DNA of 64,000 nucleotides from Leclercia sp. 29361 (GTDB lineage Bacteria; Pseudomonadota; Gammaproteobacteria; Enterobacterales; Enterobacteriaceae): positions 2,356,001 through 2,420,000 of the forward strand of contig NZ_CP049786.1 of the NCBI RefSeq assembly GCF_011290365.1. The letters run 5' to 3'. A program made the position numbers and the translations under genes. Shown here piece by piece: positions 8,082 to 32,900 of the stretch; position 1 is the stretch's first letter, and each line of letters begins with the position of its first letter. The notes under the pieces are model-generated. The model was given only the letters and a program-made list of their open reading frames with translations. It was not told where the DNA came from and ran no database searches.

Positions 8082-8111
8082 TAAAAAAAACCCGCTCAAG
8101 GCGGGTTTTTT
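8082..8111. terminator. Bidirectional terminator between maeA and cspA-like gene
   Basis: An 8-base A run, then the stem CCCGC (8091-8095), loop TCAAG, stem GCGGG (8101-8105) and a T run. It can end both the rightward maeA and the leftward csp transcript. Confidence 0.85.
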
Positions 8112-8126
8112 ATTATCAAGCGCAAA

Positions 8127-8339
8127 TTAAAGCGCTGATACGTTTCCGGCAGCAGGGCCTTTAGCGCCGCTTTCAATAGTGAAGGAAACTTTCTGGCCTT
8201 CATCAAGGGTCTTGAAATTATCGCTCTGAATCGCAGAGAAATGTACGAATACATCCTTGCTGCCGTCGTCAGGGGTAATAAAACCGAAACCTTTGTCAGC
8301 GTTAAACCATTTTACTAAACCAGTCATTTTGTTAGACAT
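8127..8339 (-). CDS. CspA-family cold-shock RNA chaperone
   Basis: A 70-residue single cold-shock domain with RNP1 (KGFGFI) and RNP2 (VFVHF) intact. Its sequence is very close to E. coli CspA ([29 protein letters not shown]). It binds single-stranded RNA and melts structure at low temperature. The leader of about 170 bases matches the cspA leader in promoter, cold box and length, so cold induction is likely. The paralogue letter (A/B/G/I) cannot be assigned from sequence alone. Confidence 0.93.
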
Positions 8340-8437
8340 AAATACTTCCTTAATTGATGAGCCACTTAACCGCGGCGATGGTGGCCTGTATTTTAGAGTG
8401 ACTTATTAGGCACTATAGGAGGAGGCTCATGAAGAAG

Positions 8438-8505
8438 GGTATCGGGTGATAACACTTGAACTGAGGACTGCTTTACTAAAATTGCTTTCATAAGGTCTGC
8501 TTTCC
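8438..8505 (-). promoter_or_regulatory. Cold-box 5' leader of the cspA-like gene
   Basis: Read on the minus strand, the blocks CAGACC, AAAGCA, TAGTAA, CAGTCC, TTCAAG, TTATC and GATACCC occur in the same order and with similar spacing as in the E. coli cspA leader. There this region folds into a thermosensing structure containing the cold box. Confidence 0.7.
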
Positions 8506-8517
8506 AAACCGATGAGC

Positions 8518-9859: not shown

Positions 9860-11074
9860 TCACCTGCGTTCAGTGGCGCAGACCATGGTTTCTGCGACCT
9901 GACGCTGCGTCAGCCACCAGAACACCAGCGCCAGCAGGCTGACTAAAGCCCCCAGCAGACATACCCCCTGCCAGCCAAAATGCGCATACGTGACGGTGGT
10001 GCCGATGGCGCCCAGTCCGCTGCCGACGGCGTAAAATAGCATGTACAGCCCCACCAGCCGGCTATGCGCGTCCGGGCGGGTGCGGAAGATCAGGCTCTGA
10101 TTGGTGACATGCAGCGCCTGGCCGCCCAGGTCCAGCAGCACGATGCCGATCGCCAGCGCCCAGAGTGAGACCTCCATCAGCGACAGCGGCCACCAGGCCA
10201 GCACCAGCGCCAGAAGCGCTATCCCGCTGGTGCGCCGGGCATATCCTCTGTCCGCCCACTCCCCGGCCCGGGCCGCGGCCAGCGCGCCGACCACGCCTGC
10301 CAGCCCGAACGCACCAATCGCCGTGTGCGAAAAGCTGTAGGGCGGCGCGCTCAGGGGCAGGACGAGCGCGCTCCAGAAGATGTTAAAGGCAGCGAACATC
10401 AGCAGGGCCAGCATGCCCCTCACCTGTAACACTTTCTCATCACGTAGCAGGGTCAGCATCGAGGCCAGCAAACGGGGATAACTCAGCGTACGCGAGGCCG
10501 GAGGCAGAACCGGCAGCCGTCGCCACAGGGGGATCGCAATCGCCAGCATCAGGAGCGCGGCGCAGAAGTAGACCCCGCGCCAGCCCGCGAGGTCGCTGAT
10601 GCCCCCGGCAAAGACCCGCGCCAGCAGCAGTCCAATGAATACCCCGCCCTGGGCTGTTCCCACTACCCGCCCCTGTTCATGAGGCGCAGCGGCGCTGGCC
10701 GCATAGGCGATCAGCCCCTGGGTCATCGCCGTGCCGAGCAGCCCAACGGCGAGCATACCTCCCAGCAATACCGGGGCGGACTGCGCCATCCCCACCGCAA
10801 TCAGGGCGACAATCAGGGCCACCATTTGTATCGCCATCAACCGACGGCGATCCACCCGGTCCCCCAATGGCACCAGAAACAGCAGCGCCAGCGCGCAACC
10901 CAGTTGGGTGGCGGTGATCACCCCTCCCACCGCCGCCTGGCTGATGCCAAAATCCCGTGCCAGGGCGTCGAGTAGCGGCTGGGCGTAATAGACATTCGCC
11001 ACGCTCAGGCCGCTGGCGATGGCGAACAGCCACACCAGGCTGGGTGATATACGCGCGCTCGGTTGCACATTCAT
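9860..11074 (-). CDS. MFS transporter (YgaY-like)
   Basis: About 404 residues with 12 hydrophobic segments of the major facilitator superfamily. The loop 2-3 signature GDRVDRRRL and the N-terminal GLSVANVYYAQPLLD are typical of the sugar/drug efflux branch that includes E. coli YgaY. The start at 11074 follows AGGAAG by nine bases. Its promoter region carries two operator-like dyads, so a repressor probably controls it. Likely an inner-membrane exporter; substrate unknown. Confidence 0.8.
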   Translation of the reverse strand: MNVQPSARISPSLVWLFAIASGLSVANVYYAQPLLDALARDFGISQAAVGGVITATQLGCALALLFLVPLGDRVDRRRLMAIQMVALIVALIAVGMAQSAPVLLGGMLAVGLLGTAMTQGLIAYAASAAAPHEQGRVVGTAQGGVFIGLLLARVFAGGISDLAGWRGVYFCAALLMLAIAIPLWRRLPVLPPASRTLSYPRLLASMLTLLRDEKVLQVRGMLALLMFAAFNIFWSALVLPLSAPPYSFSHTAIGAFGLAGVVGALAAARAGEWADRGYARRTSGIALLALVLAWWPLSLMEVSLWALAIGIVLLDLGGQALHVTNQSLIFRTRPDAHSRLVGLYMLFYAVGSGLGAIGTTVTYAHFGWQGVCLLGALVSLLALVFWWLTQRQVAETMVCATERR

Positions 11075-11093
11075 GCTGTTAGCTTCCTGTAAC

Positions 11094-11114
11094 ATGGTTT
11101 CAAAATAAAACCAT
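11094..11114. promoter_or_regulatory. Operator-like inverted repeat 1 before the MFS gene
   Basis: Perfect 7-bp arms ATGGTTT (11094-11100) and AAACCAT (11108-11114) lie around a 7-base AT-rich spacer, 20 bases upstream of the MFS start. Confidence 0.5.
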
Positions 11115-11128
11115 TTAAAGGTAGGTCA

Positions 11129-11151
11129 GGTGGTTTTAAAATGCAACCACC
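11129..11151. promoter_or_regulatory. Operator-like inverted repeat 2 before the MFS gene
   Basis: Perfect arms GGTGGTT (11129-11135) and AACCACC (11145-11151) enclose a 9-base spacer. They share the GGTT/AACC core with repeat 1, whose centre is 36 bp away. This fits a dimeric repressor binding twice. Confidence 0.5.
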
Positions 11152-11240
11152 AGCTTTATGCTGGTGCCCTTGCTGGCCATACAAAACCCCGCTACACTCC
11201 TTTCATTCATCAACCCACTGAATATAAAAGGAGGCTAATT

Positions 11241-11324
11241 ATGCTGTGCTGTGAAATCTTTGAAATTTCACTTCACCTTGGTGATCGCACCTGCTCAAGC
11301 GTTATCGGTTTCGTGCTGCGATAA
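11241..11324 (+). CDS. 27-codon leader peptide upstream of the ABC-F gene
   Basis: A small ORF begins at an ATG preceded by AAAGGAGG, far stronger than the SD of the following gene, and encodes MLCCEIFEISLHLGDRTCSS plus seven residues. Its last 11 codons run through the 5' arm and loop of a long hairpin, and its TAA lies in the 3' arm. A translating ribosome would therefore open the hairpin. The layout is that of a regulatory uORF. I know no named homologue; the peptide itself may have no function beyond being translated. Confidence 0.6.
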   Translation: MLCCEIFEISLHLGDRTCSSVIGFVLR

Positions 11325-11337
11325 CTTCGGCTTGAGC
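11293..11337 (+). promoter_or_regulatory. Attenuator-like hairpin in the ABC-F leader
   Basis: Arms GCTCAAGC+GTTATCG (11293-11307) and CGATAAC (11319-11325)+GCTTGAGC (11330-11337) give 15 pairs with a 4-base bulge and an 11-base loop. The same GTTATCG recurs at 11379-11385 and CTTGAG at 11425-11430, so downstream copies can form mutually exclusive pairings. No T run follows, which favours translational rather than transcriptional attenuation. Confidence 0.6.
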
Positions 11338-11411
11338 GAAGACACCTAAGACTGAATCCCTTCTCTCGGGCTTACCGGGTTATCGTCAGCGATGTATGAC
11401 GAGGCATTTTC

Positions 11412-11432
11412 ATGACTGTAACTCTTGAGTAA
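11412..11432 (+). CDS. Six-codon ORF coupled to the ABC-F start
   Basis: ATG ACT GTA ACT CTT GAG TAA (MTVTLE) has GAGG seven bases upstream. It stops four bases before the ATG of the ABC-F gene, which has no good SD of its own. This arrangement suggests translational coupling. It is too short to be proven from sequence. Confidence 0.35.
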   Translation: MTVTLE

Positions 11433-11436
11433 GCAA

Positions 11437-13143
11437 ATGAGCACATTACTGACTGCACTTTCTCTCCGTGTTGATACCGCCTTTGACACGCTATTCAACG
11501 ACCTCACCTTTAGCCTGAAAAAAGGCGACCGCATTGGTCTGCTGGGCGATAACGGCTGCGGCAAAAGTACCCTGCTGAAGATCCTCGACGGCACAGACAC
11601 GCCCCTCTCCGGGACGGTCGCGCTGGCCGGGCACTGCCTGATGGCACGGGTTGAGCAACATCTCCCTGAATCCGTCTATCCGCTGACCATGATCGACGCG
11701 GTGCTGGCCCAGCTGCCGGTGGCCGAGCGCGAAAGCCTGCGCTGGCGGGCAGAAACATTGCTGGCGGGCATGGGTTTTACCCCGCAGGACACCGGCCTGC
11801 AATCGGCTACCCTCAGCGGCGGACAGCACACCCGACTGCTGCTGGCGCGGGCGCTGATTAACGAGCCGGATCTGTTGCTGCTGGATGAACCCAGCAACCA
11901 CCTCGACCTGCCGACGCTGCTGTGGCTGGAGCAGTTCCTGCAAAACTGGTCCGGCAGCTTTGTGCTGGTTTCTCACGACAGACAACTGCTTGATGCCGTC
12001 ACCAACGGCAGCTGGATCCTGCGCGATAAAACCCTGCACTACTTCGCCCTTCCCTGCACCCGGGCGCGTCAGGCCCTGGCGGAGAAGGACGAGAGCGACG
12101 CCCTGCGCCATAAAGCCGAGCAAAAGGAGATCGACCGGGTCACCGCCAGCGCCAAACGGCTGGCGACCTGGGGCAAGGTCTACGATAACGAGGATCTGGC
12201 CCGCAAAGCCAAGCAGATGGAACGTCAGGTGGAGCGGCTGAAGGAGAGCCAGACGGCGCTGACAAACGGCACGCCCTGGACCTTGACCCTGCGCGGCGAT
12301 GCGCTGCGGGCGGACCGGCTGCTGGAGATCGACACGCTCAGCGTTCCGCCTGCGCCGGGCCTGCCAGCGTTGTTCTCGGCAGAAAACCTCCGGCTTAAAA
12401 GCGGCGATCGGGTAGCGATTGTCGGGCGCAACGGCTGCGGGAAATCCTCCCTGATGCGGCTGATCTGGCGGCAGTGTATTGCCAGCGAAACGCATGCCGG
12501 GCTGAAGATCCACCCACGCGTGGCCATGGGCTATTACGACCAGACCCTGCATCAACTGGCGGATGACGCCACACTAATCGACGCCCTTGAGCCCTTCGCG
12601 CCTGACCCGCAGCATCGCAAGATGGCGCTGATCTCCGCCGGATTCGCCTGGGCCCGGCACGGGCAAAAGGTCAGCACCCTCAGCGGGGGTGAACGATCCC
12701 GGCTGCTGTTTATTGGCTTAACGCTGGCCCGCTTTAGCCTGCTGATGCTCGATGAACCGACCAACCATCTGGACATGGAAGGCAAAGAGGCGCTGGCCGA
12801 AACGCTGCAACAGTTCGAAGGCGGCGTGCTGCTGGTCAGCCATGACCGGCAGTTAATCACCCAGAGCTGCAACCGCTTCTGGCTGATTGAACATGGCCAG
12901 CTCAGCGAATGGCACGATGCCGACGCGGTGTTTACCCGCCTGCGGGATGGCAGCGGGGTCAGCGCCGTGCCGGTTCAGGCCGTGCGGCAAGAGGAACCCG
13001 AGTCACATGAGGATCTGCTGGAACGGTTGATTATGCTGGAGACGTTGCTGGAAGAAGATCGGCTGCGTAAGCCTAAGCATCAGAAGCCGCAGCTTCAGGC
13101 CCAGTGGCAGGAGGAGATTGCCGCGCTGACGGCGCAGCTGTAG
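11437..13143 (+). CDS. ABC-F family ATPase (ribosome-acting type)
   Basis: About 568 residues with two ABC domains and no membrane segment. Domain 1 has GDNGCGKST, LSGGQHTR and LLLLDEPSNHLD. A charged linker follows at about 200-270. Domain 2 has GRNGCGKSS, LSGGERSR and LLMLDEPTNHLD. A C-terminal acidic/basic helical tail ends the protein. The tandem DEPxNHLD motifs mark ABC-F proteins (EttA, Uup, YbiT, YheS and the antibiotic-resistance group), which act at the ribosomal E site. The ATG at 11437 is preferred over an in-frame TTG at 11425. Two upstream small ORFs suggest induction by translation stress. Whether it gives antibiotic protection is unknown. Confidence 0.88.
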   Translation: MSTLLTALSLRVDTAFDTLFNDLTFSLKKGDRIGLLGDNGCGKSTLLKILDGTDTPLSGTVALAGHCLMARVEQHLPESVYPLTMIDAVLAQLPVAERESLRWRAETLLAGMGFTPQDTGLQSATLSGGQHTRLLLARALINEPDLLLLDEPSNHLDLPTLLWLEQFLQNWSGSFVLVSHDRQLLDAVTNGSWILRDKTLHYFALPCTRARQALAEKDESDALRHKAEQKEIDRVTASAKRLATWGKVYDNEDLARKAKQMERQVERLKESQTALTNGTPWTLTLRGDALRADRLLEIDTLSVPPAPGLPALFSAENLRLKSGDRVAIVGRNGCGKSSLMRLIWRQCIASETHAGLKIHPRVAMGYYDQTLHQLADDATLIDALEPFAPDPQHRKMALISAGFAWARHGQKVSTLSGGERSRLLFIGLTLARFSLLMLDEPTNHLDMEGKEALAETLQQFEGGVLLVSHDRQLITQSCNRFWLIEHGQLSEWHDADAVFTRLRDGSGVSAVPVQAVRQEEPESHEDLLERLIMLETLLEEDRLRKPKHQKPQLQAQWQEEIAALTAQL

Positions 13144-29959: not shown

Positions 29960-32900
29960 TTATGCTTTCTCGATGTTGACCAGAAACGCCTTATACTCCG
30001 GCGTCTGCGAGTTGGAATCCCCTACCGCAGGCGTCAGGGTGTTGGCGATATAGCCCTTCTGCGCCACCCCTTCAAAACCCCAGTGCAGCGGAATACCCAC
30101 CGTTTCCACCTGCTGACCGTGAACGTTCAGGGCCTGCAGACGACGGGTAACCACCGCCACGGCACGAATAAACCCGCGCTGGCTGCTGACCTTGACGCGA
30201 TCGCCGTTGGCAATCCCTTTGGCCTGTGCCAGGGTCTCGCTGATCTCGACAAACTGTTCCGGCTGAGCGATAGCGTTCAGTCGCGCATGCTTGGTCCAGG
30301 TGTGGAAATGCTCGGTCAGGCGATAGGTGGTGCCGACGTACGGGAACTTGTCTTTCTTGCCCATCCGCACGGCATCTTCCTCGTAGACACGCACCACCGG
30401 GCTGGAGACCACGTTCGGGTGCAGCGGGTTGGTGCCCAGCGGCGTTTCCATCGGCTCGTAGTGTTCCGGGAACGGCCCTTCTGCCAGTTTGTCGATGGCA
30501 AACAGACGTCCCAGCCCTTCCGGCTGCATGATAAACGGCCCGGTGTTGCTGCCCGGCGCGGCGGTGTTGTAGTCCGGAATATCGTTCCCGGTCCACTTGG
30601 TCCCGTTCCACTGGATCAGCATCCGTTTTGGATCCCACGGCTTGCCGTTGATGTCCGCCGAGGCGCGGTTGTAGAGCACGCGGCGGTTGAGCGGCCACGC
30701 CCAGGCCCAGCCCAGCGTATTGCCCAGCCCTGACGGGTCGGCATTATCGCGGTTGGCCATCTGGTTGCCCTGCTCGGTCCAGCTCCCGGTGTAGATCCAG
30801 CACGACGACGCGGTGCTACCGTCATCACGAAGTTGGGCGAAGCTGCTCAGCAGCTGGCCTTTCTTCGCGATCAGCACACCGTTAGCGTCGTAGAGATCCG
30901 CCAGCGCGTAGCCATTGTTCTCTTTCGCCACCTCTTCCGATTCCGGATGATCCGGCTGTTTGTAATCCCAGCTCATCCGCAGCAGCGGCTCAACGCCCTT
31001 GCCGCCTTCGGTGCGGTACATCTCGCGCAGGCGATGGTAAATCCCGGCCAGGATCTCGCCGTCGTTACGCGCTTCGCCCGGGGCATCCTGTCCTTTCCAG
31101 TGCCACTGCAGCCAGCGGCCGGAGTTAGCAATAGAGCCGTCCTCTTCCGCGAAGCAGGTGGACGGCAGACGGAAGACCTCGGTCTGAATCGAGGCGGGAT
31201 CCACGTCATTCATCTCGCCGTGGTTCTGCCAGAAGGTCGAGGTTTCGGTCACCAGCGGATCGATTACCACCATGTACTTCAACTTGCTGAGGCTGGCGAC
31301 AATCTTGTTCTTATCCGGGAACGATGCCACCGGGTTGAAGCCCTGGCAGATATAGCCTGTGACCTGGCCTTTCGACATCATGTTGAAGTACTTAATGACG
31401 TCGTAAGACTGATCCCATTTCGGCAGCCAGTTAAAGCCCCAGTCGTTCTCCTTCTGTGCCGCATCGCCGTAGAAAGATTTCATCAGGCTGACGAAGAACT
31501 TCGGATAGTTGCTCCAGTAGTTAACCTGGTCAGGCAGCGTCGCTTTCGGCGTGTTCGCCGTCATATAGCTCTGCAGATCCGTCTGTTTCTCGGACGGCAG
31601 CGTCAGATAGCCGGTCAGGCTGGTCGACAGCAGACCGAGATCGGTCAGACCCTGGATGTTGGAGTGTCCGCGCAGGGCGTTGACCCCGCCACCGGCCATG
31701 CCCATGTTGCCGAGCAGCAACTGGATCATCGCCATAGTACGGATGTTCTGCGCCCCGACGGTGTGTTGCGTCCAGCCCAGCGCGTACAGGAACGTCGTGG
31801 TTCTGTCCGCGGCACTGGTGGAGGCCAGCACTTCGCACACTTTCAGGAAATCGGCTTTTGGCGTGCCGCAGATGTTCTCCACCACCTCTGGCGTATAGCG
31901 GGAGACGTGCTGTTTCAGCAGGTTCCACACGCAGCGCGGGTCGGTCAGGGTTTCATCGCGTCTGGCATAGCCATTCTCGTCGAACTGATAGTTCCAGGAA
32001 GATTTATCGTACTGGCGTTTTTCGGCGTCGTAGCCGCTGAACAGCCCGTCTTCGAAGGCAAAATCTTCCCGCACCAGCAGATTGGCGTTGGTGTAGTGCT
32101 TAACGTACTCGGCGTTAATTTTGTTGTTTTCGATCAGGTACAGCAGCACGCCGGAGAGGAACGTAATGTCCGTGCCGGAGCGGATGGGCGCATAGATATC
32201 AGCCACCGATGCCGTACGCGTAAAGCGCGGATCGACGACGATCAGCGTCGCATCGTTATTGTTTTTCGCTTCCATCGCCCAGCGGAATCCCACTGGATGA
32301 GCTTCAGCGGCGTTACCGCCCATCACCATCACGACGTTGGCGTTTTTGATATCAACCCAGTGGTTGGTCATCGCACCGCGACCAAATGTTGGAGCAAGAC
32401 TTGCTACCGTTGGTCCGTGTCAGACGCGCGCCTGGTTATCTACCGCCAGCATGCCGAGGGAGCGCACAAATTTTTGCGTCAGCATGCCGGTTTCATTACT
32501 TGCCGCCGAGGCACACAGCATCCCGGTGGAGGTCCAGCGGTTCACCGTCACGCCCTGGTCGTTGGTCTCGACGAAGTTGGCGTCGCGGTCGGCTTTCATC
32601 AATTTCGCAATCCGGGTGAAGGCCTCATCCCAGGAGAGTCGCTGCCATTTGTCGGAACCCGGCGCGCGGTATTCCGGGTAACGCAGACGGTTTTCGCTGT
32701 GGACATAGTCCAGCAGCCCCGCCCCTTTCGGGCATAACGCCCCACGGCTGACCGGATGATCCGCGTCGCCTTCAATATGATAAATCGACTCTTTGGCGTT
32801 CTTCGCGCCATCACCCAGGCTATACATCAATAGCCCGCATCCCACGGAGCAGTATGTGCAGGTGTTACGGATCTCTTTCGCGCGCAGCAACTTATAGTTG

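Follow-up and report, generated by a model that had tools for sequence, protein, structure and literature searches.

A conserved leader with a small open reading frame and two competing RNA folds, a probable translational attenuator, precedes an ABC-F gene of Leclercia

The DNA analyzed here (the window) is a stretch of 64,000 nucleotides from Leclercia sp. 29361, positions 2,356,001 to 2,420,000 of contig NZ_CP049786.1, and the host genome is this one contig of 4,943,774 bases. The window carries a gene for an ABC-F ATPase, and ahead of the gene lies a leader with a 27-codon open reading frame (uORF), four RNA arms named A to D, and a six-codon open reading frame close to the ABC-F start (Table 1). 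An initial annotation, made from the letters of the window, had described the 27-codon frame with a strong Shine-Dalgarno (SD) sequence, AAAAGGAGG, and both are present. It had also likened the leader to ribosome-stalling control regions. The small frame and its hairpin are conserved in 80 leaders of related bacteria, and these relatives carry most of the argument below.

Ninety distinct leaders were collected, of which 80 remained after removal of near-copies: 51 from Enterobacterales with uORFs of 27 codons (one of 28), 14 of a Vibrio type with 25-26 codons, and 15 of a beta/Aeromonas type with 28-31 codons, so that uORF length spans 25-31 codons. They were gathered by patterns naming the SD and the end of the uORF, and ABC-F loci missed by the patterns were read individually. 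Two leaders (L147 and L142) were added via hand-widened patterns, one found at the start (L050) was dropped from the final set, and three entries of the family search and six of the order search were not included. Citrobacter, Klebsiella pneumoniae, Buttiauxella, Erwinia, Yersinia aldovae, Rahnella, Pantoea, Vibrio, Marinomonas, Aliagarivorans, Xenorhabdus budapestensis, Aeromonas, Janthinobacterium, Burkholderia, and Paraburkholderia are among the bacteria that have the leader.

AAGGAG or AGGAGG stands 4-8 nucleotides ahead of the uORF ATG in all 80 leaders, a count that holds partly by construction because the collecting pattern required an SD. AGGAGG followed by a spacer and ATG occurs at seven sites, among those listed, in the window. 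Therefore, the SD by itself is no proof of a uORF, and the relatives have to decide. In them, the start, the frame, and the position of the stop codon (71 TAA, 8 TAG, and 1 TGA) are kept. Counted back from the stop, the residue at -17 is H or R in 66 of the 80 leaders, that at -15 is F, L, or Y in 78, and that at -14 is G or S in 74, all three with varied codons; the peptides thus share the conserved motif [HR]-x-[FLY]-[GS]. The ratio of non-synonymous to synonymous change (dN/dS) before arm A is lower in frame than in the two shifted frames in each group: 0.62 versus 0.74 and 1.00 in Enterobacterales (n = 50), 0.60 versus 0.89 and 1.23 in the Vibrio type (n = 12), and 0.49 versus 1.45 and 0.89 in the beta/Aeromonas type (n = 13). 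For uORF codons 11-15 of Enterobacterales, it is 0.39 in frame versus 0.47 and 1.19. Attenuation by amino-acid starvation was rejected, since the uORF has no conserved run of a single amino acid; the SSS of some peptides is CSC, RSA, or similar in other leaders.

The four arms allow two mutually exclusive folds. In one, arm A, GCTCAAGCGTTATCG (11293-11307), pairs with CGATAAC...GCTTGAGC (11319-11337) of arm B. In the other, B pairs with C and A with D. GTTATCG returns at 11379-11385, and arm A finds its complement, TAACTCTTGAG, at 11419-11429, so the recurring arm sequences and alternative folds of the initial annotation are borne out, and both folds are kept in the relatives. Its 15-bp hairpin holds insofar as A and B can pair, but the computed minimum-energy fold of the window's leader is B:C + A:D. 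The layout of the switch changes with this: it would have four arms, with A, inside the uORF, hiding the ABC-F start through D while B pairs with C. Folding of this one sequence is not beyond chance (z -1.47; 15 of 200 shuffles as good), and the case for an RNA switch therefore rests on the relatives. In the 51 Enterobacterales leaders, 93.3% of the cells of the fold A:D + B:C + P4 are paired, versus 36-43% when slid. Eleven of its pairs changed on both sides versus 3.9 in shuffles, none of 500 being as high, and 35 cells did so versus 9.7. P4 contributes pairs that are AU in 32 leaders and GC in 15, UA in 34 and CG in 7, and CG in 48 and UA in 2. In the competing fold A:B + P3, 94.4% of cells are paired versus 24-50% when slid, and 13 cells changed on both sides versus 3.0 in shuffles. 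The outer helix of A:B is 99.0% paired, with one pair AU in 40 leaders and GC in 9.

The best support for A:D is found, from the sequences, in the comparison between lineages. The helix is rebuilt with other letters, CTCAAG/CTTGAG in Enterobacterales and GCTCTTG/CAAGAGC, directly 5' of the ATG, in Burkholderia-type leaders. Cognate A:D duplexes have mean energies of -17.3 (Enterobacterales, 15 leaders) and -15.9 kcal/mol (beta), whereas those crossed between the two are weaker, at -11.2 and -9.2 kcal/mol. Vibrio-type A pairs with Enterobacterales D as well as with its own (-15.9 versus -13.8), but the reverse cross does not (-10.2). The strength of B:C was matched by shuffles in 12 of 4,000 trials. 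A mini-hairpin around uORF codons 14-17 was unsupported, with 56.7% of cells paired. An intrinsic terminator between the uORF and ABC-F was rejected, as none was found there on the plus strand and the sole site lies upstream on the other strand. A known Rfam family was likewise rejected as the identity of the leader, which in Rfam 15 had no match at the gathering score and two at chance level (E 1.9 and 2.9).

Table 1. Features of the leader, the ABC-F gene, and their surroundings (positions in the window).
Feature	Position	Strand	Basis or remark
-10-like hexamer TACACT, probable leader promoter	11193-11198	+	loose TANNNT pattern
uORF SD AAAAGGAGG	11226-11234	+	sequence; ends 6 nucleotides 5' of uORF ATG
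uORF, 27 codons, MLCCEIFEISLHLGDRTCSSVIGFVLR	11241-11324	+	sequence and conservation in relatives; ATG 11241, TAA 11322-11324
5' hairpin within uORF	11251-11271	+	86.2% of cells paired in 50 Enterobacterales leaders, versus 26-57% slid
Arm A GCTCAAGCGTTATCG, inside uORF	11293-11307	+	pairing and comparison
Arm B, uORF end and beyond	11315-11341	+	pairing and comparison
Arm C, pairs with B	11360-11390	+	two B:C helices, with 98.9% and 96.6% of their cells paired
Hairpin P3 (TCGTCA/TGACGA), competes with B:C	11383-11402	+	98.0% of cells paired; no two-sided changes
Hairpin P4, 3' side contains six-codon ORF start	11402-11417	+	95.0% of cells paired; three pairs with two-sided changes
Six-codon open reading frame (ORF), MTVTLE, judged not a conserved element	11412-11432	+	relatives compared; ATG 11412, TAA 11430-11432
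Arm D, pairs with A, with weak ABC-F SD (GAG 11427-11429)	11419-11429	+	pairing and comparison
ABC-F ATPase gene, 568 amino acids, PAF1-like (by distribution)	11437-13143	+	domains, fold, relatives
Divergent transporter gene	9860-11095	-	
Palindromic repeats	11095-11113; 11131-11149		
Terminator-like hairpin	11148-11166	-	
cspA thermoregulator	8082-8513	-	Rfam match
SECIS_3 selenocysteine element	32367-32425	-	Rfam match

The leader precedes orthologous ABC-F genes in Gamma- and Betaproteobacteria. A covariance model built from the 51 Enterobacterales leaders only finds it at all 9 Vibrio-type loci given and at 8 of the 9 from the beta/Aeromonas type (L147 was missed); it also matches L026 and L066, and none of the 11 other ABC-F loci given. 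Across 60 genomes, the model has a single match in each of 34. In the window's genus (36 genomes), leader and ABC-F gene occur together in these same 34, with the gene directly downstream by coordinates, and the other 2 have neither. On a tree of 53 ABC-F proteins, the leader, found with 31 of them, requires 2 changes; shuffling the labels raises this to 17.3, and none of 500 shuffles came as low. The 31 form one clade together with two leaderless Pseudovibrio rows of unsure placement. Aeromonas falls among Burkholderiales and Marinomonas beside Vibrio, which suggests that gene and leader have moved together. No such leader was found at six relatives of 39-46% identity or at two order-search matches. 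A Marinomonas ABC-F of 39% identity (L064) has a different 26-codon leader frame at about 2816-2896, with a good SD and an HLGD stretch resembling the window's peptide, and without the L-R end.

Of 198 genomes sampled from the family, 44 carry a full-length ABC-F ortholog of at least 59% identity, the window's own among them. With a threshold of E 1e-120, the samples, which overlap, gave 47 matching genomes among 394 for the order, 12 among 398 for the phylum, and for the class a single one among 274, the window's own. No ortholog was found in Escherichia coli: the matches in 70 of 5,426 genomes never extend over 80% of the query, and the 10 listed are a match of 104 bases within ybiT. Plasmid records match in 51 of 72,556 cases, which does not support resistance plasmids as the main carriers; 27 are from Pantoea or Rahnella and 43 are predicted to be non-mobilizable, with 30 of the 51 listed.

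The ABC-F protein matches Pfam ABC_tran twice, its two ABC domains being joined by a long two-helix linker. Its AlphaFold2 model has a mean predicted local distance difference test score of 89.2, with interdomain helices at residues 207-248 and 252-270. The top PDB fold matches of the model are ABC-Fs, with VmlR2 first by E-value and PoxtA highest, among the matches listed, in query template modeling score (0.76); by sequence, the nearest solved chain is YheS. The best curated family is that of ribosomal protection-like ABC-Fs, and the protein lies far below the cut-off of all named resistance ABC-F models. A PADLOC match (mad3) covers a stretch of the shared ATPase domain and led nowhere. Murina et al. 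2019 named an ABC-F subfamily, PAF1, and passages of that paper predict it, on other grounds, to be a resistance factor (PMC6723617). The window's protein fits PAF1 because the genera agree, the name resting on this distribution. Betaproteobacterial members occur here as well, and the passages of that source mention no leader, which is present here.

The six-codon frame exists and ends 4 nucleotides ahead of the ABC-F ATG, as initially annotated, but it was rejected as a conserved second leader. Of the 51 Enterobacterales leaders, 20 have a frame like MPVTLE, 15 of them starting with ATG, whereas the 14 Vibrio-type and 15 beta/Aeromonas leaders have none, by a pattern match outside which a few near-variants such as MPVNLE fall. 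Its start sits in the 3' side of the covarying hairpin P4. The ABC-F start, which had been thought to lack an SD, has a weak one in arm D: GAG, GGG, or GGA stands at this position in 77 of the 80 leaders, GAG itself in 68.

To follow the effect of a ribosome, each of the 80 leaders was folded with 30 nucleotides masked, as if occupied by a ribosome, at chosen codons, and the energy needed to open the ABC-F start was calculated as a cost; in the termination state the P site is on the last sense codon of the uORF, and one single-letter shuffle per leader served as control. The mean cost is 7.9 kcal/mol both with no ribosome and when the P site is at codon -16, counted from the stop; it is 5.7 at -12, 5.2 at -10 and -9, 6.0 at -4, and again 7.9 at the last sense codon. 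In the three lineage groups, the costs free, at the best of -10 to -8, and at termination are 7.8/5.2/7.6, 7.3/3.9/7.4, and 8.5/5.8/9.3, the predicted opening range being narrower in beta/Aeromonas leaders; in the window's own leader they are 11.2, 5.2, and 9.2 kcal/mol. The cost dips by more than 1 kcal under that of either end state in 60 of the 80 native leaders versus 13 with arm A shuffled. According to this modeling, A:D shuts the ABC-F start and a ribosome over arm A opens it, when about 13 to 4 codons ahead of the uORF stop. A terminating ribosome is predicted to leave the start about as closed as no ribosome does, not more closed.

Taken together, the leader is probably an erm-type translational attenuator, driven by a stalled ribosome, that controls a PAF1-like ABC-F. 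Comparison of the relatives argues for this by the anatomy, its conservation, the two competing folds with their paired changes, and the linkage to one ABC-F clade, and the range in which the switch would be on is computed. We infer the ribosome stall, an inducing drug, and a protective role of the ABC-F. With no ribosome on the leader, B would pair with C, and the pairing of A with D would mask the weak ribosome-binding site of the ABC-F. Termination at the uORF stop would leave the start about as closed. A ribosome stalled within the predicted range would cover A while B holds C, and D would be free for translation of the ABC-F to begin. The ribosome-stalling architecture of the initial annotation is retained in the uORF and its competing hairpins ahead of ABC-F, with the stall predicted over arm A and not at the end of the frame. 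The peptide likely senses a drug located in the peptidyl-transferase centre or the exit tunnel. With a stall in the middle of the range, the motif [HR]-x-[FLY]-[GS] would be 5-6 residues from the P site, a region of the tunnel where drug-sensing peptides act, and the ABC-F, once made, would relieve the drug. We suggest, tentatively and as something short of an even chance, that the four-arm switch comes with an undescribed class of drug-sensing arrest peptide, with its motif about five residues up the tunnel, in Enterobacterales, Vibrionaceae, Aeromonas, and Burkholderiales; that it reports a natural ribosome inhibitor, perhaps outside the usual inducers; and that the PAF1 ABC-F is an intrinsic, inducible protection against that inhibitor.

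Several observations weigh against the attenuator. On the RNA side, the fold A:B + P3 has only two pairs with changes on both sides, a number that 334 of 500 shuffles also attain, and A:D is the weakest helix, with 84.6% of cells paired and hardly any pairing at one of its positions; among shuffled D arms, 7-8% match the real D in their pairing with A. Crossed B:C is mostly as strong as cognate, with little lineage-specific rebuilding, so that B:C is conserved rather than rebuilt. The predicted dip is absent from 20 of the 80 leaders and persists in 31 of 80 with the middle shuffled, which, set beside the 13 with arm A shuffled, indicates that B:C adds less than A:D. Sequence comparison gives moderate support to selection on the peptide, weakest in Enterobacterales. 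The uORF is frameshifted, with intact RNA arms, in two relatives, L026 (genome G096) and L066 (plasmid p1 of Pseudomonas sp. T1-3-2); this could be sequencing error or natural escape from regulation, and in the L066 record the ABC-F match, too, is split into three pieces. In addition, the ABC-F is under the curated cut-off of the protection family NF000355 (323.3 versus 380 bits).

The same device could also stall its ribosome at the stop codon, through a terminal L-R as in MsrDL, TnaC, or SpeFL, with a different response such as blocking B or halting transcription. MsrDL is described as stalling at its own stop codon (passages of PMC10314930), and the uORF ends in L-R in 78 of the 80 leaders. 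That count is partly by construction, however, since the collecting patterns named the uORF end, and the codons of L-R pair with arm C. Both exceptions, L151 (P-R) and L142 (L-Q), alter the residue and can keep B:C, so the conservation is better explained by the RNA. The computation makes the start no easier to open at termination than in the ribosome-free state, the plus strand yielded no intrinsic terminator, and we consider a stop-codon stall improbable. Another reading is direct sensing by a structured RNA, the cue being a metabolite, an ion, the temperature, or a protein, for instance the ABC-F itself, and the uORF a passenger or timing device. Much of the peptide is less conserved than the RNA arms, the hairpins P3 and P4 and the 5' hairpin are also kept, and the ribosome stall is our deduction; on the other hand, the uORF keeps its start, frame, and stop position across very different sequences and three stop codons, Rfam has no match, and in the 60 genomes searched the leader stands solely before this ABC-F. 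Direct sensing seems quite improbable.

A general sensor of translation stress deserves more weight, though it too is on the unlikely side. It would respond to many inhibitors or to any slow elongation, and the ABC-F would resolve stalled ribosomes and not be a resistance protein for one drug class. As described in two sources, toiL of E. coli responds to several unrelated drug classes (PMC12121999) and housekeeping ABC-Fs work in translation (PMC6723617); the predicted range is about ten codons wide, so many stalls would suffice. However, the patchy presence in the family and the apparent transfer between families suit a resistance gene better, and the conserved peptide motif suggests some specificity.

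Upstream of the leader, two near-identical palindromic repeats of 19 nucleotides (84% alike, spaced 36 nucleotides) are located at the start of the divergent major facilitator superfamily gene and look, by sequence, like regulator operators. The terminator-like hairpin lies between this gene and the leader, upstream of the transporter start. TANNNT occurs 34-62 nucleotides 5' of the uORF in 46 of 51 Enterobacterales leaders, clustering at -46 to -49, and in 4 of 14 Vibrio-type and 14 of 15 beta/Aeromonas leaders. A promoter scan did not include TACACT among its calls and called a different site at 11114-11142. The two Rfam matches of the window are ordinary.

If the attenuator is real, a ribosome-protection gene that is silent until induced, and that may escape ordinary susceptibility testing, would lie on the chromosomes of Enterobacter-like bacteria, Klebsiella, Vibrio, Aeromonas, and relatives of Burkholderia, and the inhibitor that switches on the leader would likely reveal against which drug the PAF1 ABC-F protects. 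In titles, abstracts, and passages of the open-licence literature searched, the leader is undescribed. Its kind, a translational attenuator before a ribosome-protection gene, is already known, and its peptide, RNA, and host range are new to the sources searched.

In the erm attenuators ermC and ermB, a ribosome stalled in a leader frame frees the downstream start. Like them, our leader has a leader frame, arms with two exclusive pairings, and, as proposed here, a stalled ribosome that frees the downstream start; the gene, the peptide, and the RNA differ, and the closed state here would also use the long-range A:D besides C. Both erm systems are named as translational attenuators in passages of PMC12121999. 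The drug-inducible ABC-F leaders of vmlR, cplR, and msrD come, according to passages of PMC12121999 and PMC10314930, from Gram-positive bacteria. As in msrD, an ABC-F here is under a leader peptide and a stalled ribosome (predicted in our case), but MsrDL, as described in PMC10314930, has six residues, stalls at its stop codon, and acts on transcription through an intrinsic terminator of the kind not found here. The leaders of vmlR (Bacillus subtilis) and cplR (Clostridioides difficile) likewise place a drug-induced leader frame ahead of a resistance ABC-F (passages of PMC12121999), but in Gram-positive hosts. Finally, toiL of the E. coli topAI operon is, like our leader, an enterobacterial uORF that senses ribosome-targeting antibiotics, as proposed here, and opens a hidden ribosome-binding site, but in the account of PMC12121999 it has eight codons and belongs to a toxin-antitoxin operon with no ABC-F.
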